In this document: positions 24,677 through 49,205 of the stretch, piece after piece
Position numbering within the stretch: the stretch's first letter is position 1
How the letters are laid out: the number at the start of each line of letters is the position of its first letter
NCBI GenBank assembly: GCA_017461605.1
Contig: JAFTXN010000003.1
Span: 62,001-126,000, forward strand
Reading direction: 5' to 3'
DNA from: Bacteroidaceae bacterium
GTDB taxonomy: Bacteria > Bacteroidota > Bacteroidia > Bacteroidales > Bacteroidaceae
DNA: 64,000 nucleotides
Notes under the pieces: model-generated
Databases searched by the model: none
The model's input: only the letters and a program-made list of their open reading frames with translations
What the model was told of the DNA's origin: nothing
Program-made: the position numbers and the translations under genes

Positions 24677-24836
24677 ATTTCTAAATGTATTTAGTGGTAT
24701 AAACATGAGGCTACCCGATGGCCAAATCCGGCAAGGCGGATGCAGAATGGGGGAACACATACGAGGATTTTCGCTTTCGCTAAACTGAAAAAACGAAAAT
24801 GCACCCCGGAAGTCCTGCCAATCAGTGCAAAAATCG

Positions 24837-24844
24837 TAATTTTG
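24837..24844 (+). promoter_or_regulatory. -7 box upstream of cysC
   Basis: TAATTTTG matches TAnnTTTG and lies 21 nt before the cysC ATG. A clear -33 TTTG is not seen. Confidence 0.45.
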
Positions 24845-24865
24845 CCGAAAATACACTCCCCAATC

Positions 24866-25495
24866 ATGGAAAAAAAAGTTCAGCCGACATCGGCCGATAA
24901 CAACATATACCCCATCTTCGACCGCATGCTGTCGCGCGAGGACAAAGAGCAACTGCTCGGCCAACGTGGCGTGATGCTGTGGTTCACAGGCCTCAGCGGA
25001 TCGGGAAAAAGCACCGTAGCCATTGCGCTGGAGCGCGAGTTGCAACGTCGCGGTCGCTTGTGTCGCATCCTTGACGGCGACAACATTCGCACCGGCATCA
25101 ACGCCGGCCTTGGCTTTTCGCCCGAGGACCGTCGTGAGAACATCCGCCGTATTGCTGAAGTGGGAAAGCTCTTTGTCGACACAGGCATCATCACCCTGGC
25201 TGCCTTTGTCAGTCCCACCGAAGAAGTGCGACAGATGGCACGAGGCATCATTGGCGAGGACGATTTCAAAGAGATATTCATCTCCACCCCCTTGGAAGAA
25301 TGCGAAAGGCGAGACGTGAAGGGCCTCTATGCCCGTGCCCGCCGTGGTGAGGTGAAGGAATTTACCGGAATCTCGGCACCCTTTGAAGCTCCCGAACATC
25401 CGGCACTCGCACTCGACACTTCACGCCTGTCGCTCGAAGAAAGCGTACAACAGTTGCTCGAGTTGTTGGGCTTGGAGCCTACTCAAAAAGTATAA
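24866..25495 (+). CDS. cysC: Adenylyl-sulfate kinase
   Basis: Phosphorylates adenosine 5'-phosphosulfate (APS) to PAPS in sulfate activation. 209 residues from the ATG at 24866 (MEKKVQPTSAD). The frame is open further upstream, but that stretch includes the promoter. Walker A GLSGSGKST at residues 42-50, then DGDNIRTGINAGLGFSPEDR and the lid motif DVKGLYARARRGEVKEFTG are diagnostic. cysD follows after 18 bp, so the two form an operon. Confidence 0.96.
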   Translation: MEKKVQPTSADNNIYPIFDRMLSREDKEQLLGQRGVMLWFTGLSGSGKSTVAIALERELQRRGRLCRILDGDNIRTGINAGLGFSPEDRRENIRRIAEVGKLFVDTGIITLAAFVSPTEEVRQMARGIIGEDDFKEIFISTPLEECERRDVKGLYARARRGEVKEFTGISAPFEAPEHPALALDTSRLSLEESVQQLLELLGLEPTQKV

Positions 25496-25513
25496 AACAT
25501 AACATCTGAAAAT

Positions 25514-26425
25514 ATGACCGAAAACTACAATCTCAGCCATCTCAAAGAACTCGAAGCCGAGAGTATATACATCATTCGCGAAGTGGCCGCCGAATTTGAG
25601 AACCCCGTGATGCTCTATAGCATCGGCAAGGACTCAAGTGTCATGGTGCGCCTGGCCGAGAAGGCTTTTGCTCCGGGCAAAGTGCCTTTCCCCCTGATGC
25701 ACATCGACTCAAAATGGAAATTCCGCGAAATGATTGAGTTTCGCGACAACTACGCCAAGCAATTCGGTTGGAACCTCATCGTGGAGAGTAACGAGGAAGC
25801 ATTCAATGCCGGAGTGGGTCCCTTCACACACGGATCGAAGGTACACACCGACCTGATGAAGACACAGGCCCTGCTCGCAGCACTCGACAAACACAAATTT
25901 GACGCAGCCTTCGGCGGAGCACGACGCGACGAAGAGAAAAGCCGCGCCAAGGAACGCATCTTCTCTTTCCGCGACCGCTTCCACCAATGGGACCCCAAGA
26001 ACCAGCGACCCGAACTTTGGGACATCTACAACGCTCGCGTTCACAAGGGTGAGAGCATCCGCGTATTCCCTCTCTCCAACTGGACCGAGCTGGATATTTG
26101 GCAATACATCCGCCTGGAGAACATCCCCATCGTGCCCCTCTATTTCGCTAAGGAACGCCCCGTTATCAACATGGACGGACAACTTATCATGCCCGACGAC
26201 GAGCGCCTGCCCGAAGCCTATAAGGACAAGGCCGAAATGCGCAAAATCCGTTTCCGCACCCTGGGCTGCTGGCCACTCACCGGTGCCATCGAGAGCGAAG
26301 CCGATACCATCGAAAAGATTGTGGAGGAAATGATGACCACCACCAAGAGCGAACGCACCACACGCGTCATCGACTTCGACCAAGAAGCATCCATGGAGCA
26401 AAAGAAGCGCGAAGGATATTTCTAA
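25514..26425 (+). CDS. cysD: Sulfate adenylyltransferase subunit 2 (CysD)
   Basis: The PP-loop ATP pyrophosphatase subunit that forms APS from sulfate and ATP, normally together with the GTPase subunit CysN. 303 residues, full length. The PP-loop [10 protein letters not shown] is near residue 35; [21 protein letters not shown] and [12 protein letters not shown] are also typical. It follows cysC by 18 bp. Unusually, a strong terminator follows after 35 bp and there is no cysN in the window. Confidence 0.96.
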
Positions 26426-27528: not shown

Positions 27529-29589
27529 TTACTTGTTTTGGTAGGCCTCCAAGCCCTCTTGCAAGAATTTGACATACTCATCGATGTCTTCATCATAAGA
27601 GCGACCACCGGTAAGGGGCTTTCCGTCGTTGTCCAACAGCACATAGAAAGGCTGTGCATTGGCACCAAACTTGGAGCGCTGCAAGTAGCTCCACAGGTCG
27701 CCCACGGTACGCAACTTGGTCTTTGCCCCGTTTTCTTCGGTAACCTCCATTGTTTCGGGCAACTTCTTCTTCTCGTCCACATAGAGCGAGATGAGCACAT
27801 AGTCCTGCGTCAACATCTTTTTCACAGTGGGGTCGTTCCACACGGCCAACTCCATCTTACGGCAGTTCACGCATCCGTGACCGGTGAAGTCCACCATCAC
27901 GGGCTTGCCCACCTGCTTGGCATAAGTCATACCGGCGTCGTAATCGCGGAACTTGGCTTCCACGGTGCTCTTGTCGAGATTGAAATCCTGTGTGGAGATG
28001 GGCGGAGCAAATGCACTCACAGCCTTGAGCGGTGCGCCCCAAAGTCCGGGAATCATGTATATGGCAAAGGCAAGCGAGCAAAGCGCTAAGAAGAAGCGCG
28101 GCACGCTGGTGTGAGTTTCGTCATCGTCATGCGGGAACTTGATGCCTCCCAGCAGGTAGATGCCCAGCAGACCGAAGATGGCGATCCACAGAGCAAGGAA
28201 TGTTTCGCGGTCGAGGATGTGCCAGCCGTAAGCCAAGTCGGCCACGGAGAGGAACTTCAAAGCAAATGCCAATTCCAAGAAACCGAGCACCACCTTCACC
28301 ACGTTGAGCCAGCCACCGCTCTTGGGAGCACTCTTAAGCCATGTGGGGAAAAGAGCAAACAGGGTGAAAGGCAGAGCCAATGCAAAAGCAAAGCCTAACA
28401 TACCGATGGTGGGAGCCAAAGCAGAACCACCGGAAGTGGATACCTCAACGAGCAAGAAACCGATGATGGGACCGGTGCACGAGAACGATACGAGCGAAAG
28501 CGTGAAAGCCATCAGGAAGATGCTGAGCAGACCGGTGGTTTTCTCAGCCTTACTGTCGACAGCTGCACCCCAAGAAGAGGGAAGCGTAATCTCGAAACCT
28601 CCGAAGAAGCTGGCGGCAAAGACCACCAACATCAGGAAGAACAGGATATTGAACACGGCATTCGTAGACAGGTCGTTCAATGCACTGGCACCAAAGATGG
28701 TGGTAATAATAAGACCGAGGGCCACGTAAATAACCACAATCGAGATGCCATAAATCACAGCGTCGCGGATACCCTTTCGCTTGTTGTCGGCACGCTTCAG
28801 GAAGAAGCTCACTGTCATCGGAATGATGGGCCACACACAAGGGGTAAACAAGGCCACAAGACCGCCCACAAATCCGAGGAAGAAGATGTACCACCAAGCC
28901 TTTCCGGCCACGTTGGCTTCTTCGTTTCCGAACTCTTGGAGTTCCTTGATAACGGGTGTCCACCACATCTTGGTGTCACCGCCCGATGCCACGATGGGAG
29001 CAACCTGGGTGGAATCGACCTCTGTTGCAGTTGCAGTGTCGGCCTGAAGTGCCTCGGGGGCTTCGGCAGTTGCAGCCGGTTCCTCCTTGGGAGCGGCCGG
29101 TGCTTCGGGCTCTTTCTTCTCGGGTTCTGCTACCTTGCCCGGGCCGTCTGTACCCTTCACCCGGCACTCCACATTGGTGGGCGGCAGGCAGTTCTGGTCA
29201 TTGCAAGCACCATAGTTAAGATAGCCTTCGAGTTCGTAATTTTGTTCCGTCAATTCGATGCGTTGTGTGAAGGTGCAAGAGTTCTCAAAATAAGACACTT
29301 GCATCTCAAAGATGGGGTCCATCGAACTCTTCACACCGGGGCCGGGTTTCAGCTTACCCACCGGCTTGGCACCCTTGGCCTTGTCGATATTGAAGGTGGC
29401 AGGGGTCGGTCCATCGGCCGGGATGTTGGTGGAATAGATATGCCATCCGGCATCGGCTTTTCCCTTGAAAATGATGTCCACGTGAGTCGGGTCGACACGC
29501 TTGTAGGACACAGAAAAACTTACCTGAGCTTGCAGGGCTGTACACACCATGAAACAGAGGGTGAGGAGCAGTAGGGTGATTTTCTTCAT
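27529..29589 (-). CDS. dsbD: Thiol:disulfide interchange protein DsbD
   Basis: Carries reducing power from cytoplasmic thioredoxin across the inner membrane to periplasmic thiol proteins. Start at 29589 (MKKITLLLLTLCFMVCTALQA, a signal peptide), 686 residues. The N-terminal domain has the Cys pair NYGACNDQNCLPP. A low-complexity Pro/Glu/Ala linker follows (about 160-200). The central eight-helix domain carries the redox pair in TPCVWPIIPMT and FSCTGPIIGF. The C-terminal thioredoxin domain has C573-V-N-C576. All six expected cysteines are present. Monocistronic. Confidence 0.95.
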   Translation of the reverse strand: MKKITLLLLTLCFMVCTALQAQVSFSVSYKRVDPTHVDIIFKGKADAGWHIYSTNIPADGPTPATFNIDKAKGAKPVGKLKPGPGVKSSMDPIFEMQVSYFENSCTFTQRIELTEQNYELEGYLNYGACNDQNCLPPTNVECRVKGTDGPGKVAEPEKKEPEAPAAPKEEPAATAEAPEALQADTATATEVDSTQVAPIVASGGDTKMWWTPVIKELQEFGNEEANVAGKAWWYIFFLGFVGGLVALFTPCVWPIIPMTVSFFLKRADNKRKGIRDAVIYGISIVVIYVALGLIITTIFGASALNDLSTNAVFNILFFLMLVVFAASFFGGFEITLPSSWGAAVDSKAEKTTGLLSIFLMAFTLSLVSFSCTGPIIGFLLVEVSTSGGSALAPTIGMLGFAFALALPFTLFALFPTWLKSAPKSGGWLNVVKVVLGFLELAFALKFLSVADLAYGWHILDRETFLALWIAIFGLLGIYLLGGIKFPHDDDETHTSVPRFFLALCSLAFAIYMIPGLWGAPLKAVSAFAPPISTQDFNLDKSTVEAKFRDYDAGMTYAKQVGKPVMVDFTGHGCVNCRKMELAVWNDPTVKKMLTQDYVLISLYVDEKKKLPETMEVTEENGAKTKLRTVGDLWSYLQRSKFGANAQPFYVLLDNDGKPLTGGRSYDEDIDEYVKFLQEGLEAYQNK

Positions 29590-29613
29590 GTTAGTTGATT
29601 GATTTTTCGGGCA

Positions 29614-29621
29614 CAAATGTA
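29614..29621 (-). promoter_or_regulatory. -7 box of the dsbD promoter
   Basis: The minus strand reads TACATTTG, 25 nt before the dsbD ATG; no clear -33 TTTG was found. Confidence 0.45.
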
Positions 29622-29962: not shown

Positions 29963-31498
29963 ATGAACAGAATAGCCAACATAGCCGTGGTACTGGCCGG
30001 AGGAAGCGGCCGACGTGCCGGTGGAGAGGTGCCCAAGCAATTTGTGGTGGTGGGCAGCCGACCCGTGATAGCCCACAGCATAGACGCATTTCAGCAAAAT
30101 GCCGGCATCGATGAAATTGCCGTGGTGGTGCATCCCGACCATGTGGAAAGAATCGAACAGATGCAACGCGAATATGGCTGGAGCAAATTGCGCCATGTGC
30201 TCACAGGAGGGGCAGAGCGCTATCACTCGAGCATGGCAGCCATCAAGGCTTATGCCGGTCGCGAGGTGAACCTCTTGCTACACGACGCCGCACGCCCCCT
30301 TGTTTCGCAAGAGATAATCAGCAGCGTATGCAGTGCTCTGACCGAGGCTGAAGCCGTAGGAGTGGCGGTCGACGCCATTGATACCATGGTGCAGGCCGAT
30401 GCCCACGTCCTGACACACCAACTCGACAGAGCCTCCCTGCGACGCATGCAGACACCACAGGCTTTCCGACTGTCGCTCATCGAGAAGGCATACGCCCGGG
30501 CACTGGACGACCCCGAATTTCAAGCCACCGACGACTGCGGAGTGGTGAAGAGATATATGCCCGAAGCCGAGATAACACTTGTGAAAGGCGATGAGGAGAA
30601 CATGAAGCTCACCTACGCAGGTGATATCCCGCTCTTGGAAAACATCCTGGCACGGCGCGAAAGGGCCAAAACCAACTTCGACAACACGAACCCAAACAGC
30701 CGACTCTCGGCCTATCAGAAGCGAAATCTGCGCAGGGCGCAACTGCGGATGCTCGACATCCTGAAAGCCATCCGCACGGTTTGCGACAACAACCATATCA
30801 CTTACTGGCTCGACAGCGGCACGCTGCTTGGCGCCGTACGCCATGGAGGGTTTATTCCTTGGGACGACGACATCGACATCTGCATCAGCCGACAGGACCT
30901 GCCGCGCTTTGTCGAAGCGGCACAGCGCGAACTGCCCCCCGAATTGTTCGTGCAAACGCCACAAACCGACCCAACGGTGCGAATGCCCATGTGCAAAGTC
31001 CGCGACCTGCAATCGCTGATTGTCGAAGGCAGCGACGACTTCTCAAAGCCCTATGCCAAAGGTCTGTATGTCGACATCTTCCCCATGGAGCCGTGGCCCG
31101 ACCTGCCCGATGCGCTTTCGCGACGCCTGGCACGCGGCTACTGCAAGGCCAACGCCATTCTGCACTGCCAGCACTACTACTCATGGCGTTCGGTGGCCGA
31201 ATTGTTCTATTTCGGAGCAAAACGCGCCGTCTGCCGAAGCCTTTGGGCGATATGCAAATGCGTCGTGCGAGGGCGCAGCTGGTACTCCAACATCCTGGAA
31301 AACAGCGGCAACGGCAACCGCCACCTTGCCACCACGATTTTCCCCGTGGGCAGCATCACCTTTGAGGGAGAAACATTCTCCGCACCGGCCAATCCCGACC
31401 GGTATCTACGCGACCTCTTTGGCGAATATGGTGCGCTGCCACCCGAGCACCAAAGAACCGGACACGCCGTGTTCTTCTGCACTGATCTAAATACATAA
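29963..31498 (+). CDS. Fusion of an IspD/TarI-type cytidylyltransferase and a LicD-type phosphotransferase
   Basis: 511 residues from the ATG at 29963 (MNRIANIAVVLAGGSGRR); the frame is open further upstream through repeat and promoter DNA. Residues 1-230 are a MEP/ribitol-phosphate cytidylyltransferase fold: LAGGSGRRAGGEVPKQF, LLHDAARPLVS, RRMQTPQAF. Residues about 260-490 are a LicD domain with DSGTLLGAVRHGG and WDDDIDI (acidic cluster D301-D305). LicD enzymes move phosphocholine or similar phospho-groups from CDP carriers onto glycans. The fusion suggests that one chain both makes the CDP donor and uses it. It could be the cell's IspD, but the fusion and neighbours argue for a glycan role. 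First gene of a four-gene operon. Confidence 0.88.
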   Translation: MNRIANIAVVLAGGSGRRAGGEVPKQFVVVGSRPVIAHSIDAFQQNAGIDEIAVVVHPDHVERIEQMQREYGWSKLRHVLTGGAERYHSSMAAIKAYAGREVNLLLHDAARPLVSQEIISSVCSALTEAEAVGVAVDAIDTMVQADAHVLTHQLDRASLRRMQTPQAFRLSLIEKAYARALDDPEFQATDDCGVVKRYMPEAEITLVKGDEENMKLTYAGDIPLLENILARRERAKTNFDNTNPNSRLSAYQKRNLRRAQLRMLDILKAIRTVCDNNHITYWLDSGTLLGAVRHGGFIPWDDDIDICISRQDLPRFVEAAQRELPPELFVQTPQTDPTVRMPMCKVRDLQSLIVEGSDDFSKPYAKGLYVDIFPMEPWPDLPDALSRRLARGYCKANAILHCQHYYSWRSVAELFYFGAKRAVCRSLWAICKCVVRGRSWYSNILENSGNGNRHLATTIFPVGSITFEGETFSAPANPDRYLRDLFGEYGALPPEHQRTGHAVFFCTDLNT

Positions 31499-31518
31499 CA
31501 TCTTCTTACAAAAACACT

Positions 31519-33327
31519 ATGCAAGCCATTATCCTTGCTGCCGGAATGGGCAAGCGCCTCGGCGAATATACCCGTAACAACACCAAATGCATGGTGCGCG
31601 TCAATGGTGAAACACTCATCGACCGCATGCTGACACAGTTGGCACAGCACCATCTGAGCCGTGTGGTCATCGTTGTGGGATATGAGGGAGAAAAATTGCG
31701 CAAGCACATCGGAAACCGCTACGACGACTGCCTGAACATCGAATTCGTTGAAAACCCCGTCTACGACAGAACCAACAACATCTACTCCCTGGCCTTGGCC
31801 AAAGAGAAAATGCAGGAGGATGACACACTGTTGCTGGAGAGCGACCTGATCTTTGATGGCGAACTCCTGAACCTCATCCTCGAAGACACACGCCCCAACC
31901 TGGCACTCGTGGCCAAATATCAGACGTGGATGGACGGCACGATGGTGCGCATAGACGACGATTGCAACATCGTGAACTTCGTGCCGAAAAAAGCCTTCAA
32001 GTACGCCGATGTTGCGCACTACTACAAGACGGTCAACATCTACAAGTTCAGCCGCGCATTCAGCACGCAGAAATACGTACCCTTCCTTGAGGCTTACTGC
32101 AAAGCACTGGGCAACAACGAATACTACGAGCAGGTGCTCCGCGTCATCACGTTCCTCGATGCGCAAGAACTCAAGGCACTCCCCATCGGCACGCGCCACT
32201 GGTACGAAATCGACGATGCACAGGACCTCGACATTGCCGAAACCATCTTCGCCGAGGGAGAAGAGAAGTGGAAGAAGTTCATGCAACGCTACGGCGGATA
32301 TTGGCGTTTCCCGGGTATGCTCGACTATTGCTACCTGGTGAACCCATACTTCCCCTCGCCACGCATGCTTGACGAGATGCGGGCTAACTTCAACACGTTG
32401 CTGACCGAATATCCCTCCGGCATGGGTGTAAACTCGCTACTCGCAGGAAAGTGTTTCGGCATCAAGAAGGAATATGTGGTGCCGGGCAACGGGGCGGCCG
32501 AACTCATCAAGAGCGTGATGGAGCATCTCGAGGGTAAACTCGGAGTTACCTACCCCACTTTCGAGGAATATCCCAACCGATTGCCCAAAGAGCGATTGGA
32601 AATTTTCCACCCCGCCACAGATTTTGCTTACACGGCCGATGACCTGATGGAACACTTCGCACAACACCCTGTGAGCACGTTGCTGCTGGTGAACCCCGAC
32701 AACCCGTCGGGCAACTTCATTCCGCGCACCGACATCGTGCGGTTGGCAGAATGGACTGCCGAGAGAGGTATGCACTTCATCGTTGACGAAAGTTTTGTGG
32801 ACTTCAGCGAAGGTTACGAACACAACTCGCTGCTTTCGGATGCCTTTCTGGAAAAATATCCACACGTGGCGGTGATGAAAAGCATCAGCAAAAGTTTTGG
32901 CGTACCGGGTCTGCGACTCGGCATCTTGGCTTCGGCCGATCCGATGATTGCTGCCGTGAAACGCGATGTGGCTATCTGGAATCTCAACAGCTTTGCCGAA
33001 TTCTTCATGCAGATTTTCAACAAATATACGGCCGAATATGCCGTTGCTTGCGAGAAGTTCCTGAAAGAGCGCAGACGTTTTGCCGCTGCCCTGGCCGAGG
33101 TGCCGCTCCTCCGCGTGCTTCCCAGCCAAGCCAACTATTTCCTCTGCGAGGTGCTACCGCCTGCCACCTCTCACGGGTTGGCGGTGGAGTTATTGCAGAA
33201 GCACGACATACTCATCAAGGATTGCAGCACAAAGAAGGGCTTCGACGGCAGAAACTTCGTGCGGCTCGCCATACGCGACCGAAAGGACAACGAACGCCTG
33301 GTGGAGGCACTGAAAGAATTCAACTGA
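31519..33327 (+). CDS. Fusion of a LicC/PntC-like nucleotidyltransferase and a class I/II PLP enzyme
   Basis: 602 residues. N-terminal part (1-245): LAAGMGKRLGEYTRN and the LicC/PntC signature RTNNIYSLALAK, with acidic SDL at 108-110, as in CTP:phosphocholine or phosphonate cytidylyltransferases. C-terminal part (255-602): fold-type I aminotransferase resembling HisC/CobD, with NPDNPSGNF (392-), IVDESFVDF (D423) and Schiff-base lysine K458 in SISKSFGVPGLRLG. Fusions of a cytidylyltransferase with a transaminase (PntC-AEPT) are known in phosphonate tailoring, but there the transaminase is a class V type; here the HisC/CobD look would also fit decarboxylation of a phospho-amino acid. 20 bp after the previous gene. 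Confidence 0.85.
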   Translation: MQAIILAAGMGKRLGEYTRNNTKCMVRVNGETLIDRMLTQLAQHHLSRVVIVVGYEGEKLRKHIGNRYDDCLNIEFVENPVYDRTNNIYSLALAKEKMQEDDTLLLESDLIFDGELLNLILEDTRPNLALVAKYQTWMDGTMVRIDDDCNIVNFVPKKAFKYADVAHYYKTVNIYKFSRAFSTQKYVPFLEAYCKALGNNEYYEQVLRVITFLDAQELKALPIGTRHWYEIDDAQDLDIAETIFAEGEEKWKKFMQRYGGYWRFPGMLDYCYLVNPYFPSPRMLDEMRANFNTLLTEYPSGMGVNSLLAGKCFGIKKEYVVPGNGAAELIKSVMEHLEGKLGVTYPTFEEYPNRLPKERLEIFHPATDFAYTADDLMEHFAQHPVSTLLLVNPDNPSGNFIPRTDIVRLAEWTAERGMHFIVDESFVDFSEGYEHNSLLSDAFLEKYPHVAVMKSISKSFGVPGLRLGILASADPMIAAVKRDVAIWNLNSFAEFFMQIFNKYTAEYAVACEKFLKERRRFAAALAEVPLLRVLPSQANYFLCEVLPPATSHGLAVELLQKHDILIKDCSTKKGFDGRNFVRLAIRDRKDNERLVEALKEFN

Positions 33328-33345
33328 CCAACAACGAACACAAGG

Positions 33346-34353
33346 ATGAATATCTGTATTTGCGGAGGAGGCTCTCTCGGGCATGTGTGCGCCGGTTTTC
33401 TGGCGGCACAACAAGGGGTGAAGGTTTCAATCCTCACACAGCGACCTGCGCTTTGGAAAAAGGTAATCACCATCACCGACCCCGAAAACCAAGTATTCAC
33501 GGGCAACTTGGCAACCATCACCTCTGATGCTGCGGAAGCCGTCAGAGGTTGTGACATTGTGTTGCTGTGTTTGCCCGGCTACCTCATAGAGAAAACGCTC
33601 CGGCAGATAGCACCACACATCAGCGCTTCGACCTTTGTCGGCAGCATTGTGGCAAGCACGGGCTTCTTTTTCTTTGCTCACTCGGTGCTTCCCGAGAGCC
33701 GCCTCTTCGGTTTCCAACGCGTGCCCTTCATCGCCCGTGTGCGCGAATATGGTTCGTCGGCTTCACTGTTGGGATACAAACCGCGCATATCCATCGCAGT
33801 AGAGAATGCTCCTGATGCAGAAGAGTTCCGACAGAGCATAGAAGAGCTGTTTCGCACTCCCACGGATTTGCTGAGCAGTTTCTATGAAGCAGCCCTCACC
33901 AACAGCAATCCCATACTGCATACCGGACGTCTCTACAGCATGTGGCATCATTGGGACGGCACACCCTACGACCACAACATCCTGTTTTATCGCGAATGGA
34001 CGGACGAGGCATCGCAATGCATCATTGACATGGATGCAGAGTTCATGCGTCTGTTGTCCCGACTCCCGGTCCGGAATGGCTGCATCCCGACGCTATTGGA
34101 CTACTACGAGAGCGCAGACGCTGCAGCGCTCACTAAGAAAATCAGCTCCATACCTGCATTTGTCGGCATACCATCGCCCATGAAGGAAACACCGGCCGGG
34201 TGGGTGCCCGACTTCTCCAGCCGTTATTTCACCGAGGACTTCCCCTTTGGGCTGCGCTTCATCGTAGAACAGGCCCAAAAGCACGGTGTTCCCACTCCCG
34301 TTATCGATGAAGTGTATCGCTGGGGAAAAAGCATGGCAGCACCGACCGAATGA
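33346..34353 (+). CDS. NAD(P)-dependent octopine/nopaline dehydrogenase-like protein
   Basis: 335 residues. An N-terminal Rossmann motif (ICGGGSLGHVCAGFLA) and an SDAAEAVRGCDIVLLCLPG strand are followed by an all-helical C-terminal half (from about residue 175, EAALTNSNPILHTGRLYSM), the form of opine dehydrogenases. The usual catalytic His may be the one in NPILHTGRLYS. Opine dehydrogenases reductively join an amino acid to a keto acid, so in this operon it might build the amino-containing group that is then activated. It starts 18 bp after the preceding fusion gene. Substrate unknown. Confidence 0.82.
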   Translation: MNICICGGGSLGHVCAGFLAAQQGVKVSILTQRPALWKKVITITDPENQVFTGNLATITSDAAEAVRGCDIVLLCLPGYLIEKTLRQIAPHISASTFVGSIVASTGFFFFAHSVLPESRLFGFQRVPFIARVREYGSSASLLGYKPRISIAVENAPDAEEFRQSIEELFRTPTDLLSSFYEAALTNSNPILHTGRLYSMWHHWDGTPYDHNILFYREWTDEASQCIIDMDAEFMRLLSRLPVRNGCIPTLLDYYESADAAALTKKISSIPAFVGIPSPMKETPAGWVPDFSSRYFTEDFPFGLRFIVEQAQKHGVPTPVIDEVYRWGKSMAAPTE

Positions 34354-34429
34354 CGCCACGACGTCTATCTTTTCACCGAAAGCGTCATCATCGAAAGAAA
34401 CCCATCGTCGAACATCACACAACAAGCTC

Positions 34430-35434
34430 ATGGTAAACGTTCCTGTCCTTATACTTTTCTTCAATCGCCCCGAAGCCTTGACAGCGGTATTCAACCAAGT
34501 GCGCAAGGCCCAACCCTCACATCTGTTCCTCTATCAAGACGGTCCGCGCAGCGAGCGCGATATGCCGGGCATCGAGGCCTGTCGTCGCATCGTGGAGAAC
34601 GTGGACTGGCCCTGCGAGGTACATCGCTTGTATCAGGAGAAGAATTACGGCTGCGACCCTTCCAACTACATGTCGCAGCGCTGGGCATTTGAGCATGTCG
34701 ACCGTTGCATCTTCTTCGAGGACGACGACGTCCCCTCCATCAGTTTCTTCGGTTTCTGCGCCGAACTCTTCGAGCGCTACGCCGACGACCCACGCATCTC
34801 GCTCATCACCGGCACCAACTACGACGAGTTTACTCCCGACATGCCATGCGACTACTTTTTTACCACGGCTTTCAACATCAATGGCTTTGGCACCTGGCGT
34901 CGCGTGTTCGAACAGTGGGAAGAGCACTACGAATTTCTGGACGATGCATACACCATGCGCCTGTTGCGCGACCATATCCGGAAATATCGGCACCAACAGG
35001 ACTTCATCGAGTTCTGCCGCTACCATCGCAGCACCGGCAAGGCCTATTACGAGACCTTGTTTCATGCCAACATTTTCCTCAATTCCGGACTCTCCATCGT
35101 GCCACGCGTCAACATGGTGAGCAACTTGGGAGCCTGCGGTGAGGGCACTCACTATTCAGGAAGCAATGCCGACCTGCCCCGTGCCATCCGGCGTATTTTC
35201 GAGATGGGACACCACGACTTACCCCTGCCTCTGAAGCACCCCAAATACATCATCGAGGATGTGGGCTACAAGGATCGGTTCTTCCGCACGCAGGGTTGGG
35301 GACATCCCTGGCTCAAGGTGGGACGCTCGCTGGAGGAGCTGTGGCTCAACCTGCGACATGGCAACTTCCGCCGCATCGGGCAAGCCATGAAAGCCCGCTT
35401 CCGCAAACTCACGGGGCGCGCCCGTTGGGACTGA
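34430..35434 (+). CDS. Glycosyltransferase (GT-A fold, GNT-I/family 2-like)
   Basis: 334 residues from the ATG at 34430 (MVNVPVLILFFNRPEAL); earlier in-frame starts overlap the upstream gene. The N-terminus reads as a nucleotide-sugar Rossmann half with FLYQDGPRS, and RCIFFEDDDVPS supplies the metal-binding acidic motif at about residues 97-108. No membrane segment is evident; a basic C-terminal end (MKARFRKLTGRARWD) could bind membrane. It follows the opine-dehydrogenase-like gene by 76 bp and closes the operon, so it likely adds a sugar to the same glycan. Confidence 0.82.
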   Translation: MVNVPVLILFFNRPEALTAVFNQVRKAQPSHLFLYQDGPRSERDMPGIEACRRIVENVDWPCEVHRLYQEKNYGCDPSNYMSQRWAFEHVDRCIFFEDDDVPSISFFGFCAELFERYADDPRISLITGTNYDEFTPDMPCDYFFTTAFNINGFGTWRRVFEQWEEHYEFLDDAYTMRLLRDHIRKYRHQQDFIEFCRYHRSTGKAYYETLFHANIFLNSGLSIVPRVNMVSNLGACGEGTHYSGSNADLPRAIRRIFEMGHHDLPLPLKHPKYIIEDVGYKDRFFRTQGWGHPWLKVGRSLEELWLNLRHGNFRRIGQAMKARFRKLTGRARWD

Positions 35435-35590: not shown

Positions 35591-35634
35591 AAAGAAAACG
35601 GAGGCCGCTACCTGCTGACGGGTAGCGGCCTCCG
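35591..35634 (-). terminator. Rho-independent terminator of the kinase-containing minus-strand unit
   Basis: CGGAGGCCGCTACC (35599-35612) pairs over 14 bp with GGTAGCGGCCTCCG (35621-35634). On the minus strand it is followed by TTTTCTTT. It may also stop the convergent plus-strand operon. Confidence 0.88.
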
Positions 35635-35658: not shown

Positions 35659-37269
35659 CTACGGTTTCTGCAACGTAGCAAGGCAGGCTTTGTAGCGATT
35701 CATTTCCTCCGTGTATATAGGGTCGTCGGGCATACCCTCAAGCATTCGATAGGAGTCCTCAAAATAAATGTAAAGGCTCTTCTCCAAACTATCGACGCTG
35801 AACGAGAGTGCTGTGGGCGTGATGCCGGTAGCAGCCGCCAGCGAGTCAGCCTTGTGCGAAAGCACCACAGCCTCGTAGAAGGTGAATGCCGTGGCGTCGT
35901 CGGGCTTCCCGTGCAATCGACGCAACAAGCTGTCGCCTTGCTGATAGAGCACTTCGGCCTGCTGCATCCATTGCTGATAGTTCTGCTCGTCCTGCGGACT
36001 GACTTGAGCCGTCTGCGCCGACATATCCGGTGCTACAGGCTCATCGTCACTGCCGGTGCCAAAAATCAATACAGCAGCCAAAATCGCAACCACTGCTGCA
36101 CCAATAGCACCCCATGGGAGCCATTTCTTCGGTGCTCCCTTGGCGGTGGATTTTCCCGGTGCATCCTTTCCAGCCTGCTGCACCGATGGTTTTGCCTTCG
36201 CGCTGGGGCGCATCAGCCGAGTGCCCTCGTCGTTCGGAGCACCGGTTGAACGTTTCAGCGTAGTGTTTTCTTCGTCACGCGGACTGCGACGGTCGTGTTT
36301 CACAATGGGAGCAGTCTTGGCCGAAACGGCTTGTTCGACCTGCACTTCGACCTCTTCAGTTCCCAACAGAGCCAGGAAATCCCTGACAGTGGGCACGCGG
36401 TCCTTGCGACGCGGCTCCATGGCTTTTTTCACGGCCTCTATCACTCGTGCACTCACACCTCTGTCCTCCAACAACCCGAGGGGCAAACCATCGTTCAGCA
36501 CATCGGACGACTTGGGCGGCGTCTGCGCTGTCAGCATCTTGAAGAGCGTGGCTCCCAACGCATAGACGTCGAGCGTCGGCGAGAAGTCGCGCGAATTTTG
36601 GTCGTTGGCCTGTTCCAGGGGAGCATATCCCGGTGTTCCCAATCCCACGGCCGTGCTCGATTCCGGCTCTCCGCTCTCGTCATACTGCTTCGACAGTCCG
36701 AAATCAATGAGCAACAGAGCACCATCACTGCTCCGGCGCATCACGTTCTTCGGCTTGAGATCGAGGTGAAGCATTTTGCAATCGTGCATATAGGCCAAAG
36801 CATTACCTATGGAGCGAATACAGGCCACAGCTTCGGTTTCGGGCAGACCGCCACGGCTGCAAACATACTCGTCGAGCGACGTACCATCGATGTGCTCCAT
36901 TACATAATAATAGGTATTGTTGGCATCAATGAAGTCGAGCACCTTCACAATGTTGGGATGGCTCATGCGCGAGAGGTTGCGTGCTTCGGTGCGGAACTTC
37001 TGCGCATACTTATGCACCAGTCCGGAGTCCGAACTTTCGGAAATCGAGCCCGTGGCATCGCGCGTGCTGACTTCCTGCATGAAAAACTCCTTGATGGCCA
37101 CCCGGGCCTCGGTTTCGATTTCGCCCAACGGGCCGGCAACCTTCACAAAGCCCGTGGCCAAATACGTTACACCAAACGAACCATTCCCCAACACTCCGTC
37201 GATGCGGTAGCGATAGGTTTCTCCCTGCAACAGAGTGCCCGGAGCTAAAACATTAGTGGGTTGGGACAT
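35659..37269 (-). CDS. Membrane-anchored Hanks-type Ser/Thr protein kinase
   Basis: 536 residues. The cytoplasmic kinase domain (about 20-300) has the Gly loop GVLGNGSFGV, ATP lysine K60 (VAIK), catalytic loop HLDLKPKNVM (D170) and D189-F-G191. The catalytic loop has Leu where RD kinases have Arg, so it is a non-RD kinase. A basic, Ser/Pro-rich linker (310-382) leads to one membrane helix (WLPWGAIGAAVVAILAAVLI, about 383-406) and a periplasmic helical tail with no PASTA repeats. It follows the SUMF1-like gene by 72 bp on the same strand, after the cysQ-DASS pair. Targets unknown. Confidence 0.93.
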   Translation of the reverse strand: MSQPTNVLAPGTLLQGETYRYRIDGVLGNGSFGVTYLATGFVKVAGPLGEIETEARVAIKEFFMQEVSTRDATGSISESSDSGLVHKYAQKFRTEARNLSRMSHPNIVKVLDFIDANNTYYYVMEHIDGTSLDEYVCSRGGLPETEAVACIRSIGNALAYMHDCKMLHLDLKPKNVMRRSSDGALLLIDFGLSKQYDESGEPESSTAVGLGTPGYAPLEQANDQNSRDFSPTLDVYALGATLFKMLTAQTPPKSSDVLNDGLPLGLLEDRGVSARVIEAVKKAMEPRRKDRVPTVRDFLALLGTEEVEVQVEQAVSAKTAPIVKHDRRSPRDEENTTLKRSTGAPNDEGTRLMRPSAKAKPSVQQAGKDAPGKSTAKGAPKKWLPWGAIGAAVVAILAAVLIFGTGSDDEPVAPDMSAQTAQVSPQDEQNYQQWMQQAEVLYQQGDSLLRRLHGKPDDATAFTFYEAVVLSHKADSLAAATGITPTALSFSVDSLEKSLYIYFEDSYRMLEGMPDDPIYTEEMNRYKACLATLQKP

Positions 37270-37341
37270 TTTTCTTCTATACTAAAAAAGATGGGTAAGT
37301 TGTTTTCAAAAGAGCGGGACACCTTCTGAGGAAATCCACAC

Positions 37342-38418
37342 TCACATCACGAGCCGCAGACCCGTTTCGCTGTTCTTGTCGGCATCACCGGCACCGGGTC
37401 GATAGAGGGAGAAGCCGCAATAGGAAGCATCGCTGTGCCACGAGCCTCCACGGTAAGCGCGGATGCTTCCCGTCTCCGGACCTTGGGGATTGGTCTCACG
37501 AGTGGAAGGATAGGCGTAGATGTAGTTGGCACACCATTCGGCCACGTTGCCACCCATGTCGTAGAGCCCCAACTCATTGGGGGCTTTTCCGCCTACTGGA
37601 TGCGTGCTCCGCTCACTGTTCTCCAAAAACCAAGCCACCTCCTGCACATTGTTGCCACCGCAATAAGAGTGATTGAAAGTGCGATTGCCACCACGAGCGG
37701 CATATTCCCATTCAGCCTCAGTGGGCAGACGGAATTTCAAGCCCGTCATGGCATTAAGCCGCTCGATGAAAGCCTGACAATCGTTCCAGCTCACATTTTC
37801 CACCGGATAGTTGGCATATTTGTTGTTCGACTTCAGTTTTTTCTTGATGAAGCCCATCACCTTGTTGTCCTTAAACTCAGACGGGTTGTCGCCCATCACA
37901 GCCATCCAAAGTGCTTGTGTAACTTCGGTCTCGCCGATGTAATAGTCATCCGTCAGGGTGATGTGATGCCGCGCCGAACCATCCTCACCACTGCCTGCGA
38001 CAAAAGTGCCGGCCTCTACCTTGACCATAGTGAAACTCACTTCGCCAACATTGATGGTGCGCTTCTCAAGTTCTTTCTTCCGATTGCGAGCAGCCTGCGC
38101 GGCACTTACCGGCACATGCGGATTGGGTGCCGGCTGTGCAGAGGGCTGCGTGCTTTCTTCCTCGGAGGAGGTATCGGCCGCACGCGAAGGCTTGCGTTTT
38201 TTCTTAGCAGCAGCCTTACACTTCTTAATCCAGCCATTGATTTCGGTACGCTTCTCTCCAAACTTTCTCAGCATGACTGTGAAATGCTGCTCGGCCTGCT
38301 GATATTTTTGCGCCCGATAAAGGTTGACTCCCTTGCTCAGATATTCTTCGTACGACGATGTTTGCGCTCCGACCGGCAGAGCGAGAAGAAGCATGAGAGC
38401 GAGCAAAATTTTTTTCAT
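37342..38418 (-). CDS. Secreted SUMF1/FGE-fold protein with N-terminal TPR-like region
   Basis: 358 residues with signal peptide MKKILLALMLLLALPVGAQ. Residues 20-80 form a TPR-like helical pair (YLSKGVNLYRAQKYQQAEQHF); a Lys-rich and then Ser/Pro/Ala-rich linker follows. The formylglycine-generating-enzyme fold spans about 125-358: VEAGTFVAGSG, ETEVTQALWMAVMG, LPTEAEWEYAARGG, YDMGGNVAEW, RGGSWHSDASYC. In true FGE the last motif has two cysteines (CxxxxC); here the first is Ser, so copper-dependent sulfatase activation is unlikely. Genes of this fold often sit beside Ser/Thr kinases in Bacteroidetes; here the kinase follows by 72 bp. Confidence 0.88.
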   Translation of the reverse strand: MKKILLALMLLLALPVGAQTSSYEEYLSKGVNLYRAQKYQQAEQHFTVMLRKFGEKRTEINGWIKKCKAAAKKKRKPSRAADTSSEEESTQPSAQPAPNPHVPVSAAQAARNRKKELEKRTINVGEVSFTMVKVEAGTFVAGSGEDGSARHHITLTDDYYIGETEVTQALWMAVMGDNPSEFKDNKVMGFIKKKLKSNNKYANYPVENVSWNDCQAFIERLNAMTGLKFRLPTEAEWEYAARGGNRTFNHSYCGGNNVQEVAWFLENSERSTHPVGGKAPNELGLYDMGGNVAEWCANYIYAYPSTRETNPQGPETGSIRAYRGGSWHSDASYCGFSLYRPGAGDADKNSETGLRLVM

Positions 38419-38456: not shown

Positions 38457-40028
38457 TCAAAAAGGCCAGAAAATCGGGACCAGCAGGACGTCCATCACAC
38501 CTACTGCGATGTTAAGGGGCAAACCGATTCTGAAGAAATCGGAGAACTTGTAACCGCCCACACCCTGCACTATCAGGTTGGTCTGATAGCCGATGGGAGT
38601 ACAGAAACTGGCTGATGCAGCCACACAGATGGTAACGATGAACGGCATGGGACTGACGCCCAAATGTTGAGCCATCGACACAGCAATCGGGAAGACCAAT
38701 GCCGCGGCTGCATTGTTGGTCATGAGTTCGGTGAAAGTGCTGGATATAATAAAAACGATGGTCAACAGAAGATACGGACTCTGACCCTGACAAACATCAA
38801 CAGCCCAAGCACCAATGGCATCAGCCATGCCGGAATTCTGCATGGCTTTGCTGATGGCAAAAGCCGATGCTATGGTTACGAGAATGTCCCACGAAATAAA
38901 CTTCGTGTATTTCCGAGCCGGGAAGATGTTGCTCCAAGCCATGATGATGGTAGTCAGACAAACGAAGAAGAACATGTCGAACTTCATGCCGGGCACCACA
39001 TTTTGCATCGAGGGAAGTTCGCCTATGGTAGCTCCCAGGATCATCAAGCCAAGCAGCACCACGGTGAACCAACGCTTCTTGAGGCCCATCGGGCTTTGCT
39101 GGCGCGTATCGCTAACCATGAGGAAGAATGACGAGTCCGCCCAGTTGTCCATGAAGACCTCGTCGGCCAAAAGCACAAGCGTATCGCCCTCGCGGAAACG
39201 CTCCTTGCGCATGTCGTGCATCAGCAGGGTGGTACCTGCTCGGCGTATCTCGAGAAGCGTTGCGCCGTATTTCTGCTTGAAATCGAAGTGTTGTACCTGC
39301 TTGCCGATGGCCGGGAAACGTGCTCCGAGCACCACTTCAACTCTGAAGTTGCGCTCATCGTTCTCCTCGCTCACCATCTCGGCCGGCATTTCGCGCCGGT
39401 CGGGAAGCAGAAACTTCGAGAAGAGGAGTATATACAGGGAACAGAAGATGGCGATAGGCAATCCGACATACGCCAGTTCGAACATAGAGAGGCCGCGCAC
39501 ACCGCTCTCAGGATGCAAAGCGGCCTCGTCGAGCGCCATGCCGTGTACCACAAGGTTGGTGGAAGTGCCGATGAGTGTGCACATGCCGCCCACAATCGTG
39601 GCGTACGAGAGCGGAATGAGCAGCTTGGTGGCCGGCTGCTTCATCTTCTCGGCCCAACGCTTGAGCATCGGTGCAAAAATCACCACCACGGGAGTATTGT
39701 TGAGAAAGGCTGATATGAACGAAATGGCCGGCATCATGCGCAGTTGCACATTGCGTATGGAGGTACTTTTGCTCGGCAGGAGGCGATAGAGCAACTGCTC
39801 CAACAAACCCGAGCGACGCACTCCCTCGCTGATGAGGAAGAGCATGGCGACGGTGATCATGCCTTTGTTGGAAAAGCCCTCCAAGACCTCTTTTGGCGTA
39901 AGTATGCCTGCAACAAGGAAAACCACGGCTCCCGAAAGCAAAACCAGCCCGGGGCGAAGCATCTCCTTGATGAGGGCAACAAGCAACAGCAGAACAACGG
40001 CTGTTACGAACAATGCGGAAATTGACAT
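38457..40028 (-). CDS. DASS/SLC13-family sodium:anion symporter with RCK_C domains (probable sulfate importer)
   Basis: 523 residues with about a dozen membrane segments in two repeats. Signature loops: SAFLNNTPVVVIFAP and GTSTNLVVHG in the first half, TNNAAAALVFPIA and TPIGYQTNLIVQ in the second. A soluble insert between halves (about 210-300) with LLEIRRAGTTLLM and FREGDTLVLLA is the RCK_C pair seen in sulfate-type members. cysQ lies 53 bp upstream on the same strand, which supports sulfate as substrate. The downstream SUMF1-like gene starts 38 bp after the stop. Confidence 0.9.
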   Translation of the reverse strand: MSISALFVTAVVLLLLVALIKEMLRPGLVLLSGAVVFLVAGILTPKEVLEGFSNKGMITVAMLFLISEGVRRSGLLEQLLYRLLPSKSTSIRNVQLRMMPAISFISAFLNNTPVVVIFAPMLKRWAEKMKQPATKLLIPLSYATIVGGMCTLIGTSTNLVVHGMALDEAALHPESGVRGLSMFELAYVGLPIAIFCSLYILLFSKFLLPDRREMPAEMVSEENDERNFRVEVVLGARFPAIGKQVQHFDFKQKYGATLLEIRRAGTTLLMHDMRKERFREGDTLVLLADEVFMDNWADSSFFLMVSDTRQQSPMGLKKRWFTVVLLGLMILGATIGELPSMQNVVPGMKFDMFFFVCLTTIIMAWSNIFPARKYTKFISWDILVTIASAFAISKAMQNSGMADAIGAWAVDVCQGQSPYLLLTIVFIISSTFTELMTNNAAAALVFPIAVSMAQHLGVSPMPFIVTICVAASASFCTPIGYQTNLIVQGVGGYKFSDFFRIGLPLNIAVGVMDVLLVPIFWPF

Positions 40029-40081
40029 ATCGCAATCAGAGTTTGACGAGTCTTACATAGGAATATACAATCGCGTTCGGA

Positions 40082-40909
40082 CTACCTCCGTCCTCGCACG
40101 ATGAACCACGGATTCAGCAGCTCGGATTTGTTATATTGCAAAGGTGCATCCACATCCACCTGCCACACTTCGCCACCTGCCGCTCGCACGATGGCATGAC
40201 CGGCTGCAGTGTCCCATTCCATGGTGGGCGCGAAGCGCGGATAGATGTCGGCAGCTCCTTCGGCCACAAGGCATATCTTGAGAGAGCTTCCGGCCGAACG
40301 CAGTTCGAGCGCAGGATGCTCTGTACGCAATTCTTCGATGAAATCGGCCGTTTCGGGCGAGAGATGCGAGCGAGAAGCGACCACCGTATAGGGACGACCG
40401 GTTGCACTTAGGGGAAGTGATTGTGCCTGCGGCGCTATTTCGCTATAAGCATAAAGCCCGGGCTGCACTTGGTCCACCTTGCAGGCTTCTGCACTGCCAT
40501 CAGAACGACAGACGCCCCAATAGAGTGTACGGCTCACCGGCACAAAGATTACTCCCAATACGGGGGCGCCCTCGCGCACCAGCGCAATGTTAACCGTAAA
40601 CTCACCGTTGCGCTTCAGAAACTCCTTGGTACCATCCAATGGGTCGACCACCCAGAGTTCAGACCACTGCCGGCGACACTCATAGGCGGCATGCGCCCCC
40701 TCCTCACTCAGCAGGGGAATATCCAAGGATGAGAGGCGGGCTACGATGGCGGCATGCGCCTTCTTGTCGGCCAAGGTGAGCGGTGAATTGTCGGCCTTGC
40801 GCTCCACTTCCCAATCGGTTTCGGGCGACGTATATACTTGCATGATGGCTTCGCCGGCCTCGACGGCCGCGCAAACAGCCGCATCCAAAAGTGCTTCAGA
40901 TGTTTGCAT
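40082..40909 (-). CDS. cysQ: 3'(2'),5'-bisphosphate nucleotidase CysQ
   Basis: Hydrolyses 3'-phosphoadenosine 5'-phosphate to AMP, clearing the by-product of PAPS use. 275 residues, inositol-monophosphatase fold. Metal-binding motifs: PLLSEEGAH and WVVDPLDGTKEF, and the C-terminal MEWDTAAGHAIVRAAGG. First gene of a minus-strand unit with the DASS transporter. It has its own tandem promoter repeats at 40949-41128. Its pathway partners cysC and cysD lie 15 kb away in this window. Confidence 0.95.
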   Translation of the reverse strand: MQTSEALLDAAVCAAVEAGEAIMQVYTSPETDWEVERKADNSPLTLADKKAHAAIVARLSSLDIPLLSEEGAHAAYECRRQWSELWVVDPLDGTKEFLKRNGEFTVNIALVREGAPVLGVIFVPVSRTLYWGVCRSDGSAEACKVDQVQPGLYAYSEIAPQAQSLPLSATGRPYTVVASRSHLSPETADFIEELRTEHPALELRSAGSSLKICLVAEGAADIYPRFAPTMEWDTAAGHAIVRAAGGEVWQVDVDAPLQYNKSELLNPWFIVRGRR

Positions 40910-49113: not shown

Positions 49114-49205
49114 TAACTTTGCTTCGCCAAGTTAGGCTACGACTCGGCAGGGCAGAAGAAAAACCAGATTTCCTTTTGCCCTGCTCTCGCCTTGCACTAA
49201 CTTTG
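49114..49205 (+). promoter_or_regulatory. Two tandem promoter repeats upstream of the GH3-family gene
   Basis: -7 boxes TAACTTTG at 49114-49121 and 49198-49205, 84 bp apart, each preceded by CTCGCCTTGCAC. The second has TTTG at 49175-49178, exactly 19 nt before its -7 box, and a leader of 33 nt to the ATG. Confidence 0.75.

Follow-up and report, generated by a model that had tools for sequence, protein, structure and literature searches.

The window analyzed here is a stretch of 64,000 nucleotides from a Bacteroidaceae bacterium, and at its center lie four genes that an earlier note, made from the letters of the DNA, had described as co-directional and separated by short gaps. The open reading frames bear this description out: all four run in the same direction, with gaps of 20, 18, and 76 bp by ORF coordinates (Table 1), and the gene upstream of the operon (27529-29616) lies on the - strand. 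An Rfam scan of the window returned one tRNA as its sole match, and no riboswitch was found before the operon. A Bacteroidetes-type promoter motif occurs seven times in the window and not once before the operon of genes 1-4. A terminator-like hairpin at 35599-35634 scored on the - strand alone and was therefore assigned to the convergent gene.

Table 1. Positions in the window of the four genes and of the halves of the two fusion proteins, with the evidence behind each assignment.
Feature	Position	Strand	ORF length	Basis
Gene 1	29963-31498	+	511 aa	
IspD half of gene 1	29963-30664	+		PF01128, class-A clade, E. coli IspD residues
LicD half of gene 1	30665-31498	+		PF04991, single LicD in genome, LicD tree
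Gene 2 (G2)	31519-33327	+	602 aa	
LicC/PntC-like cytidylyltransferase half of G2	31519-32253	+		NTP_transf_3, LicC 1jyk match
CobD-like fold-type I PLP half of G2, proposed serine-phosphate decarboxylase	32254-33327	+		Aminotran_1_2, TIGR01140, 6oux
Gene 3 (ODH), opine dehydrogenase family imine reductase	33346-34353	+	335 aa	PF02317, 3iqd/3c7a match, invariant residues
Gene 4, glycosyltransferase-like protein, family without Pfam model	34430-35434	+	334 aa	EDD, weak family matches

The suggestion that gene 1 fuses an IspD/TarI-like cytidylyltransferase to LicD is confirmed by Pfam, which assigns residues 7-230 to IspD (PF01128, 166 bits against a cut-off of 27) and residues 274-487 to LicD (PF04991, 134.3 bits, above the curated cut-off of 22.6). 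The IspD half scores narrowly below the cut-off of the NCBIfam equivalog TIGR00453 (177.9 against 181.3 bits), and falls in the class-A IspD clade of its genus in a quick tree that kept L120 and L125, such that its 17 LicD-fused rows represent 16 distinct places. It matches E. coli IspD at all of R20, K27, R85, D106, R109, T140, R157, T189, K213, and T215, which we take to have catalytic roles, including residues 85 and 189, the positions where the second-copy class C differs. Its best solved-structure match is an IspD (5ddt), and it also matches, among others, 4cvh and ribitol-5-phosphate cytidylyltransferases such as 4jis. Because this is the one strong IspD in the source genome (81% complete), which keeps IspF and DXR, the IspD half is probably the housekeeping enzyme of the MEP pathway, possibly with dual use; it thus does not have to supply the glycan with a second donor, and the reading in which it does so is weakened by the single copy and the MEP evidence. 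Relatives fuse this IspD to LicD, SDR, kinase, or glycosyltransferase-like domains. The LicD half, in turn, is the only LicD found in the source genome, and its residues 269-314 match the fukutin-related protein 6kaj (E 1.9e-7). In the LicD tree, it clusters with IspD-linked LicDs, some of which come from genomes that lack G2 and stand beside an IspD-SDR.

G2 had been described as a LicC/PntC-like cytidylyltransferase fused to a fold-type I PLP enzyme, and both Pfam (NTP_transf_3 at residues 3-135, 56.7 bits; Aminotran_1_2 at residues 315-598, 116 bits) and solved structures agree with this. The structures closest to the N half are LicC 1jyk (67.5 bits), with which it has an NN-x-YSL-x-L-x-KE motif in common, and then PntC 6pd1. 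The best solved matches of the PLP half are 6oux (threonine-phosphate-decarboxylase-like), 3ftb, and 1lc5; it is nearer to 6oux and CobD than to HisC, and its C-terminal signature is the CobD-type A-x-R, not the T-x-G of HisC. Its best NCBIfam model is the CobD equivalog TIGR01140, at 178.4 bits against a cut-off of 290.6, and the PLP half could, by analogy with Cj1437, be an aminotransferase.

Full-length G2 is present in 33 of the 150 related genomes and was not found in phage records. LicD and PF04464 proteins are CDP-dependent phosphotransferases, and one or the other accompanies G2 in 65 of 80 named loci. For 62 of these, LicD is the neighbor within 3.5 kb (counted by HMM, which supersedes a BLAST count of 55/80), and PF04464 accounts for three more; the remaining 15 loci, several of them clipped at contig ends, have neither. 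At the level of whole genomes, LicD was found in 31 of the 33 with full-length G2 compared to 46 of the 117 without it (p = 6e-9).

The third gene, which the earlier note had called opine-dehydrogenase-like, is indeed an Octopine_DH by Pfam (PF02317, 117 bits), with octopine dehydrogenase (3iqd/3c7a) as its best solved match. His192, Arg293, and Asp298, the catalytic role and numbering of which we assume, are invariant in 18/18 aligned ODHs and align with octopine dehydrogenase. While gene 3 shares its family and these conserved residues with 3iqd, its genomic partner here is CDP-amine synthesis, in contrast to the opine energy metabolism or siderophore synthesis associated with octopine dehydrogenase and the OCD/mu-crystallin family.

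Among the 33 G2 genomes, 19 carry ODH, 12 carry OCD (an ornithine-cyclodeaminase-type reductase, unrelated to ODH), none carries both, and the two with neither are 56% and 63% complete. The mutual exclusivity is significant (p = 2.6e-7), as is the presence of one reductase or the other in 31/33 G2 genomes compared to 18/117 without full-length G2 (Fisher p = 3.6e-17); in four of the G2 genomes, the reductase lies on a contig other than that of G2. Both families reduce C=N bonds in imino acids. Close to G2, ODH or OCD is found within 3.5 kb in 69 of the 80 named loci, and the gene right after G2 is a reductase (53 ODH, 9 OCD) in 62 of the 74 loci whose sequence continues for 1.5 kb or more past G2. 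Single-ORF fusions also occur among the 80 loci, joining G2 to ODH in three and ODH to LicD in four. For a prediction set beforehand, a G2-type OCD (54-75% identity) was found beyond the examined locus in four of nine genomes without an adjacent reductase, and a search for OCD alone did not find it in the other five. The best NCBIfam models of three OCDs are SbnB, ornithine cyclodeaminase, and alanine dehydrogenase, all below cut-off.

The distribution of the two reductases was also followed on a G2 tree, labeling each of the 80 named loci by what lies within 3.5 kb of G2 and every other row by what its whole genome contains. Both this and the LicD tree, which has several long branches, were built with FastTree, excluding L120, L125, and L126, as these occupy the same places as L036, L037, and L038. 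The label changes between ODH and OCD 16 times, a count that leaves out 12 rows with neither reductase and one row with both, and 14 changes are forced by supported branches when OCD is set against all other rows, including those two kinds. OCD clusters on this tree no more strongly than do shuffled labels (172/500 shuffles as low), a result expected from frequent exchange, but also from noise in the labels or from G2 itself having been transferred. A phage- or plasmid-borne origin was rejected: neither full-length G2 nor ODH was found in phages, and plasmid ODHs are distant (23-33% identical in 50 records), with three plasmid neighborhoods (from Paraburkholderia, Burkholderia, and Serratia) proving to be unrelated clusters.

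Gene 4 gave no matches at E <= 0.001 in Pfam and NCBIfam, relaxing the Pfam threshold to E <= 1 added none, and a profile of its family found no useful match among solved structures. Across 17 aligned family members, an EDD motif is invariant, and there are weak matches to PF00535 in two (best E 0.0011) and to PF01755 in three (best E 0.023). That gene 4 is a GT-A glycosyltransferase, as had been proposed, is plausible but not established; the window protein itself has no profile match.

The four-gene order was surveyed in 20 loci from related genomes (some clipped at contig ends) and in the 80 named loci, and recurs in a single related genome (G019) and in 0/80 named loci; IspD lies within 3.5 kb of G2 in 5/80, and a gene-4 family member in 9/80. 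We therefore reject genes 1-4 as a single conserved operon. The refuting condition set in the earlier note gives a split outcome: gene 1 is indeed the only strong IspD, but the core of G2, the reductase, and a LicD-type phosphotransferase is conserved as a unit, and the earlier interpretation is thus supported in part. For genes 2 and 3, conservation across 80 named loci and the set of 150 genomes excludes a chance arrangement, and this module, in which G2 is nearly always accompanied by an imine reductase, is widespread in Bacteroidales. Genes 1-4 look like two joined modules, one comprising G2 and the reductase and the other the IspD-containing gene 1.

Taking these observations into account, we give roughly even weight for and against genes 2 and 3 making a CDP-activated, N-carboxyalkylated amino-alcohol phosphate that is transferred to a glycan. 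The CobD-like half of G2 would decarboxylate O-phospho-L-serine to phosphoethanolamine, which the LicC-like half would convert to CDP-ethanolamine. Before or after this activation, ODH, or an OCD-type reductase in its place in other species, would use NAD(P)H to condense the primary amine with an alpha-keto acid, most likely pyruvate or glyoxylate, giving, for example, N-(1-carboxyethyl)ethanolamine-P, and a LicD-family or PF04464 phosphotransferase would then move the phospho-group onto the glycan. In the source genome, the candidate for this last step is the IspD-fused LicD of gene 1, although this LicD may, given its grouping with IspD-linked LicDs, use an IspD-made donor instead of the G2 product. 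Gene 4 would probably add a sugar to the acceptor glycan, and the IspD half of gene 1 would mainly be the MEP enzyme of the cell, physically attached to the decoration machinery. What was observed directly are the genes present, their homologies and conserved residues, their conservation among relatives, the fusions, and the ODH/OCD exchange, whereas we infer all substrates, the order of activation and condensation, the keto acid, and the use of the G2 donor by the gene 1 LicD.

N-(1-Carboxyethyl)ethanolamine phosphate occurs in Proteus, in the O-antigen of P. mirabilis, and our literature search did not find a paper on its biosynthesis. N-[(R)-1-carboxyethyl]ethanolamine phosphate appears in a figure key for Klebsiella capsules and P. 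mirabilis O-polysaccharides (PMC9630907, in excerpt), and, compared as a structure rather than as a gene cluster, is exactly the kind of group expected from the four activities. There is also a capsule precedent for the first step, in that Cj1436 of Campylobacter jejuni makes ethanolamine-P from serine-P (excerpted text of PMC11800397). Compared by description rather than by sequence, Cj1436/Cj1437 are likewise PLP-dependent and supply a surface glycan with ethanolamine-P or serinol-P; the amine there becomes amide-linked to glucuronate and is dephosphorylated, whereas the fused cytidylyltransferase and the LicD of our locus point to phosphodiester transfer.

The locus has in common with Lic1 (LicA-LicB-LicC-LicD) a LicC-like cytidylyltransferase, a LicD-family transferase, and a putative CDP-activated small amine, but differs in the fused PLP decarboxylase proposed as the source of the amine phosphate, in the extra imine reductase, and in having no convincing choline kinase. 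This family reaches 22.8 bits in the source genome, below the cut-off of 29, and is barely above cut-off in 2/33 G2 genomes; the Lic1 phosphocholine reading is rejected for want of this kinase, as the earlier note had anticipated for plain phosphocholine. The note had also doubted a standard phosphonate, and rightly so: PntC (6pd1) resembles the N half of G2 and is similarly fused to a PLP enzyme, yet that enzyme is a class V transaminase where the PLP half of G2 is class I/II and CobD-like, and PEP mutase was found in 0/33 G2 genomes, in a search whose controls gave signals in 6/14 genomes, none above cut-off. On this count we reject a PntC-type phosphonate pathway as very unlikely. A reading in which the glycan receives unmodified phosphoethanolamine from G2, with the reductase a frequent neighbor that has some other metabolic job, would suit three loci (L098, L099, and L102) in which a divergent LicD is present and no reductase lies within about 10 kb. 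It is, however, improbable, since nearly every G2 genome has one, but not both, of the two unrelated reductases, sometimes on another contig, and since ODH is found fused to G2 as well as to LicD.

The amino alcohol itself could be another one, with the PLP half making serinol-phosphate (by transamination of dihydroxyacetone phosphate) or aminopropanol-phosphate (from threonine-phosphate), and the amine then being CDP-activated and N-carboxyalkylated. We consider this rather unlikely, as the C-terminal signature of the PLP half is not HisC-type and its closest solved relative is 6oux, which we take to be SMUL_1544. The latter has been proposed to make ethanolamine phosphate (PMC4585668, in excerpt), while on the other side the best NCBIfam model of the PLP half is a threonine-phosphate decarboxylase and (S)-serinol-P is made by Cj1437, whose gene belongs to the capsule locus that also encodes Cj1436 (PMC11800397, in excerpt). 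From sequence, neither the kinship with 6oux nor the CobD-type signature fixes the substrate of the PLP half.

A CDP-alditol system in this genus deserves more credence, although we lean against it: the IspD half would make CDP-ribitol or a similar donor, LicD would transfer the polyol phosphate, and the product of G2 and ODH would use another transferase. The models for this are the CDP-ribitol systems, human ISPD with FKTN/FKRP and bacterial TarI/Bcs1, which couple an IspD-type cytidylyltransferase to a LicD-family phosphotransferase, in gene 1 within one polypeptide. The matches to FKRP and to ribitol-5-phosphate cytidylyltransferases are in line with such a system, as are the IspD-SDR genes beside LicD in six genomes without full-length G2 (G013, G014, G016, G031, G037, and G056) and in a Parabacteroides distasonis plasmid, with which loci the window LicD groups in the LicD tree. 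Gene 1 differs, however, in that its IspD also appears to be the sole one in a cell retaining the MEP pathway, with the residues and the best solved match of an IspD; moreover, SDR is absent from the operon, and with no other LicD found in the genome (81% complete), the G2 product would be left without one.

Returning to the N-carboxyalkylated product, the present data suggest, tentatively and short of an even chance, that Bacteroidales have a widespread, undescribed CDP-linked opine pathway, in which an N-carboxyalkylated CDP-ethanolamine, or its equivalent from a related amino alcohol, would provide a zwitterionic or acidic group for surface glycans, two unrelated imine reductases are swapped freely at the key step, and one genus has its housekeeping IspD built into the same decoration proteins, where a single enzyme may serve isoprenoid and glycan synthesis alike. 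The recurrent swap of the two reductases constrains the chemistry unusually strongly for a purely genomic finding, and the IspD fusions pose a separate, testable question, namely whether glycan decoration draws on a housekeeping enzyme of isoprenoid synthesis. As the core of the enzyme set recurs in many relatives of this Prevotella-group gut bacterium, its product is testable. Zwitterionic groups on the surface can affect how bacteria are recognized by the immune system and attacked by phages, and the locus provides candidate biosynthesis genes for a chemically known surface group, N-(1-carboxyethyl)ethanolamine phosphate, predicting that a group of this kind would be found in common gut and rumen bacteria.

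The window operon has the layout described in the earlier note, with four plus-strand open reading frames separated by gaps of 20, 18 and 76 bp, and the domain calls made there also stood for genes 1–3, while gene 4, read as a glycosyltransferase, matched no model in our Pfam and NCBIfam scan. Weak glycosyltransferase matches were obtained for only some of 17 aligned members of the gene-4 family. The genome itself comprises ten contigs (2.06 Mb, 81% complete). Sulfate activation-like genes flank the operon, and no cysN-like ORF was noticed by eye in the window directly after cysD. We also note seven Bacteroidetes-type promoter motifs in the window against 0.63 expected, four of which have the core CTTGCA-Y-TA-M-CTTTG in common and perhaps form one regulon.

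Features of the window operon, its surroundings and two related loci (L089, L212)
Feature	Coordinates	Strand	Remark
Gene 1 (IspD–LicD)	29963-31498	+	ORF, domain content confirmed
Gene 2 (G2)	31519-33327	+	ORF, domain content confirmed
Gene 3 (ODH)	33346-34353	+	ORF, domain content confirmed
Gene 4 (glycosyltransferase-like)	34430-35434	+	ORF, no Pfam/NCBIfam model
Terminator-like hairpin	35599-35634	-	14 pairs; on strand of the convergent genes
Ser/Thr protein kinase-like and formylglycine-generating-enzyme-like genes	35659-38418	-	By eye; convergent to operon
Sulfate activation-like genes	24740-26425, 38457-40909		By eye: cysC, cysD; SLC13-type carrier, cysQ
Promoter motif sites (among seven)	1545-1662	-	
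	40949-40980	-	
	49175-49205	+	
L089, two reductases	L089:2183-4816		G2, adjoining OCD, divergent ODH (32%), LicD broken by contig end
L212 (genome G140), split G2	L212:4332-6507		G2 halves as separate neighbouring genes (34%, 36% identity)

Using a profile of G2 (the LicC-like cytidylyltransferase fused to a CobD-like PLP half) built from 18 sequences, we found a relative encoded in at least 545 of 593 pattern-matching stretches, of which 80 named loci were kept. These are labelled Bacteroidales or groups within that order, including Hoylesella timonensis and Xylanibacter rarus, with a Fibrobacter label on two (L085, L087). At 74 loci the sequence downstream of G2 extends for 1.5 kb or more; of these, 53 have an opine dehydrogenase (ODH) as the gene right after G2 and 9 have an ornithine-cyclodeaminase-type reductase of the OCD/mu-crystallin family (OCD). 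One or other reductase lies within 3.5 kb of G2 in 69 of the 80; G2 and ODH form a single ORF in L057, L061 and L065, as do ODH and LicD in L069, L080, L090 and L114. LicD lies within the same distance at 62 loci, and three further loci carry PF04464, another CDP-alcohol-dependent phosphotransferase family (L058, Pfam-checked; L059 and L112, by likeness to L058). Where at least 3.5 kb is available on both sides of G2 (n = 56), LicD is found at 44 loci, and LicD or PF04464 at 47. Within 3.5 kb, IspD occurs at 5/80 loci and the gene-4 family at 9/80. Only L089, among the 80, has ODH as well as OCD in the vicinity of G2, and L212 perhaps preserves an unfused state.

The two reductases exchange for one another across genomes. 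Full-length G2 is present in 33 of 150 related genomes, 19 with ODH, 12 with OCD, none with both and two, only 56% and 63% complete (G020, G038), with neither; ODH and OCD occur together in none of the 150. The 117 genomes without full-length G2 encode ODH in 8 cases and OCD in 10 (two below the family cut-off). The Fisher p values for the association of a reductase with G2 (33 vs 117 genomes, 3.6e-17) and for the mutual exclusion within the 33 (2.6e-7) are inflated by relatedness. Reductases on a different contig from G2 (OCD in G001, G041 and G047; ODH in G025) are of the G2-linked type (52-69% identity). In the nine genomes compared, out of the 18 that have a reductase and lack full-length G2, ODHs are only 21-26% identical in G059, G077, G091, G097 and G115, that of G123 has no BLAST match, and the OCD of G066 shows 27% identity; G055 (ODH, 61%) and G029 (OCD, 70%) have matching reductase types together with the PLP half of G2. 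A preset prediction, that a reductase lies elsewhere if none adjoins G2, was examined for OCD alone, with L075 and L084 as positive controls: OCD was present in 4 of 9 genomes (L041, L048, L053, L086; 54-75% identity to G2-linked OCDs; binomial p 0.005 against a base rate of 10/117) and absent in five. The ODH/OCD label switches 16 times along the G2 tree (FastTree). For OCD vs all other rows, supported branches require 14 switches or more, and OCD rows cluster no more tightly than shuffled ones do (172/500 as low). Repeated replacement is the simplest reading of these changes, with possible contributions from G2 transfer or label noise.

The ODH and OCD families have in common the reduction of a C=N bond in an imino acid. 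That one can stand in for the other next to G2 thus suggests that a keto acid N-alkylates an amine, a reaction that would come after the PLP step because a PLP enzyme requires the amine to be free. His192, Arg293 and Asp298, which we take to be the catalytic residues of ODH, are kept in 18/18 sequences aligned with octopine dehydrogenase. The three OCDs scanned matched models for ornithine cyclodeaminase, SbnB, alanine dehydrogenase and pyrroline-carboxylate reductase, in every case far below cut-off, with SbnB the best model in one. By profile, the solved structure ranking first for the G2 PLP half is 6oux (193 bits), presumably SMUL_1544, ahead of 3ftb (itself named histidinol-phosphate aminotransferase), CobD 1lc5 and 3fkd, with further HisC-named structures below 3fkd. 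The CobD-type C-terminal A-x-R signature is present in 17/18 G2 sequences (S-x-R in the remaining one), and HisC from L115 has T-x-G at this position. LicC is the closest match of the N half. SMUL_1544 is proposed to make ethanolamine phosphate (PMC4585668), and in the Campylobacter jejuni capsule Cj1436 converts serine phosphate to ethanolamine phosphate and the product of Cj1437 is serinol phosphate (PMC11800397); we liken these two enzymes to the G2 PLP half by their described function.

The chemistry of the pathway, most of which we infer, would thus run from phosphoserine to phosphoethanolamine, to CDP-ethanolamine, to an N-carboxyalkyl derivative and then to transfer. PEP mutase was matched in 0/33 G2 genomes, and choline kinase matches were weak (any match in 24/33, just above cut-off in 2/33). 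N-[(R)-1-carboxyethyl]ethanolamine phosphate is presumably a Proteus constituent. The compound stands in the key of a review figure on Klebsiella capsules and Proteus mirabilis O-polysaccharides (PMC9630907); beyond this review, literature that covered subscription journals thinly yielded a single, unrelated paper.

Gene 1 contains the sole strong IspD of the window's 81% complete genome (168.8 bits, next 29.8). Class A, to which it belongs, is a distinct clade (SH-aLRT 98, 52 rows) found across the window genus and separate from class B (other Bacteroidales) and from the second-copy group, class C, which is putatively TarI-like. Class-A rows are fused to LicD in 17 cases (16 distinct places), to SDR in nine (L137-L143, L155, L172; called by length and clade, library-checked for L137 and L142), to butyrate kinase in three (L144-L146; L145 library-checked) and to the gene-4 family in one (L154), the remainder being unfused. 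LicD comes next after the butyrate kinase–IspD fusion in L145 and L146. Class A replaces the usual Bacteroidales IspD in many genus members, and G034 (L157), of the same genus, keeps the usual type. The IspD half of gene 1 most likely serves isoprenoid synthesis, because it is single-copy, IspF and DXR are present and catalytic positions are kept. Eleven genomes of the same genus from which a class-A gene was retrieved (G006, G011, G012, G015, G027, G028, G030, G037, G042, G045, G056) gave exactly one IspD match each, and ten of them have IspF; where several matches occur, they were listed down to ~129 bits, and weaker second copies are possible. IspF is present in 43/50 genomes overall (22/22 of high quality) and DXR in 14/15 (10/10). 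All 51 class-A rows keep E. coli R20, K27, R85, D106, R109, T140, R157, K213 and T215, with T (49) or S (2) at T189; class C departs at 85 (G in 11/11) and 189. Separately, NZ_OL790811.1 and NZ_OL790812.1 are Proteus mirabilis entries of 4.1 Mb each that are classed as plasmids and resemble whole chromosomes; the latter encodes an IspD 41% identical to that of the window.

Whether the LicD half uses the G2 product can be argued both ways. Counting against such use, its clade comprises 29 LicDs that are IspD-linked or of the genus type, and some of these adjoin IspD–SDR in genomes without G2. For it count the window's own sub-clade, in which 11/12 rows are G2-adjacent, and G007, G022, G027 and G054, where G2 and IspD–LicD lie on separate contigs and no LicD other than the IspD-fused one was found. 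The same half is the only LicD found in the window's genome (81% complete).

In literature that covered subscription journals thinly, we found neither LicD combined with nopaline dehydrogenase nor LicD with octopine dehydrogenase and a cytidylyltransferase, and LicD was absent among the matches listed in a wider search; all of this is weak evidence of absence. The parts of the module are known families, and from them we infer a system for the decoration of glycans with CDP-activated small molecules, which would include an opine-type step.
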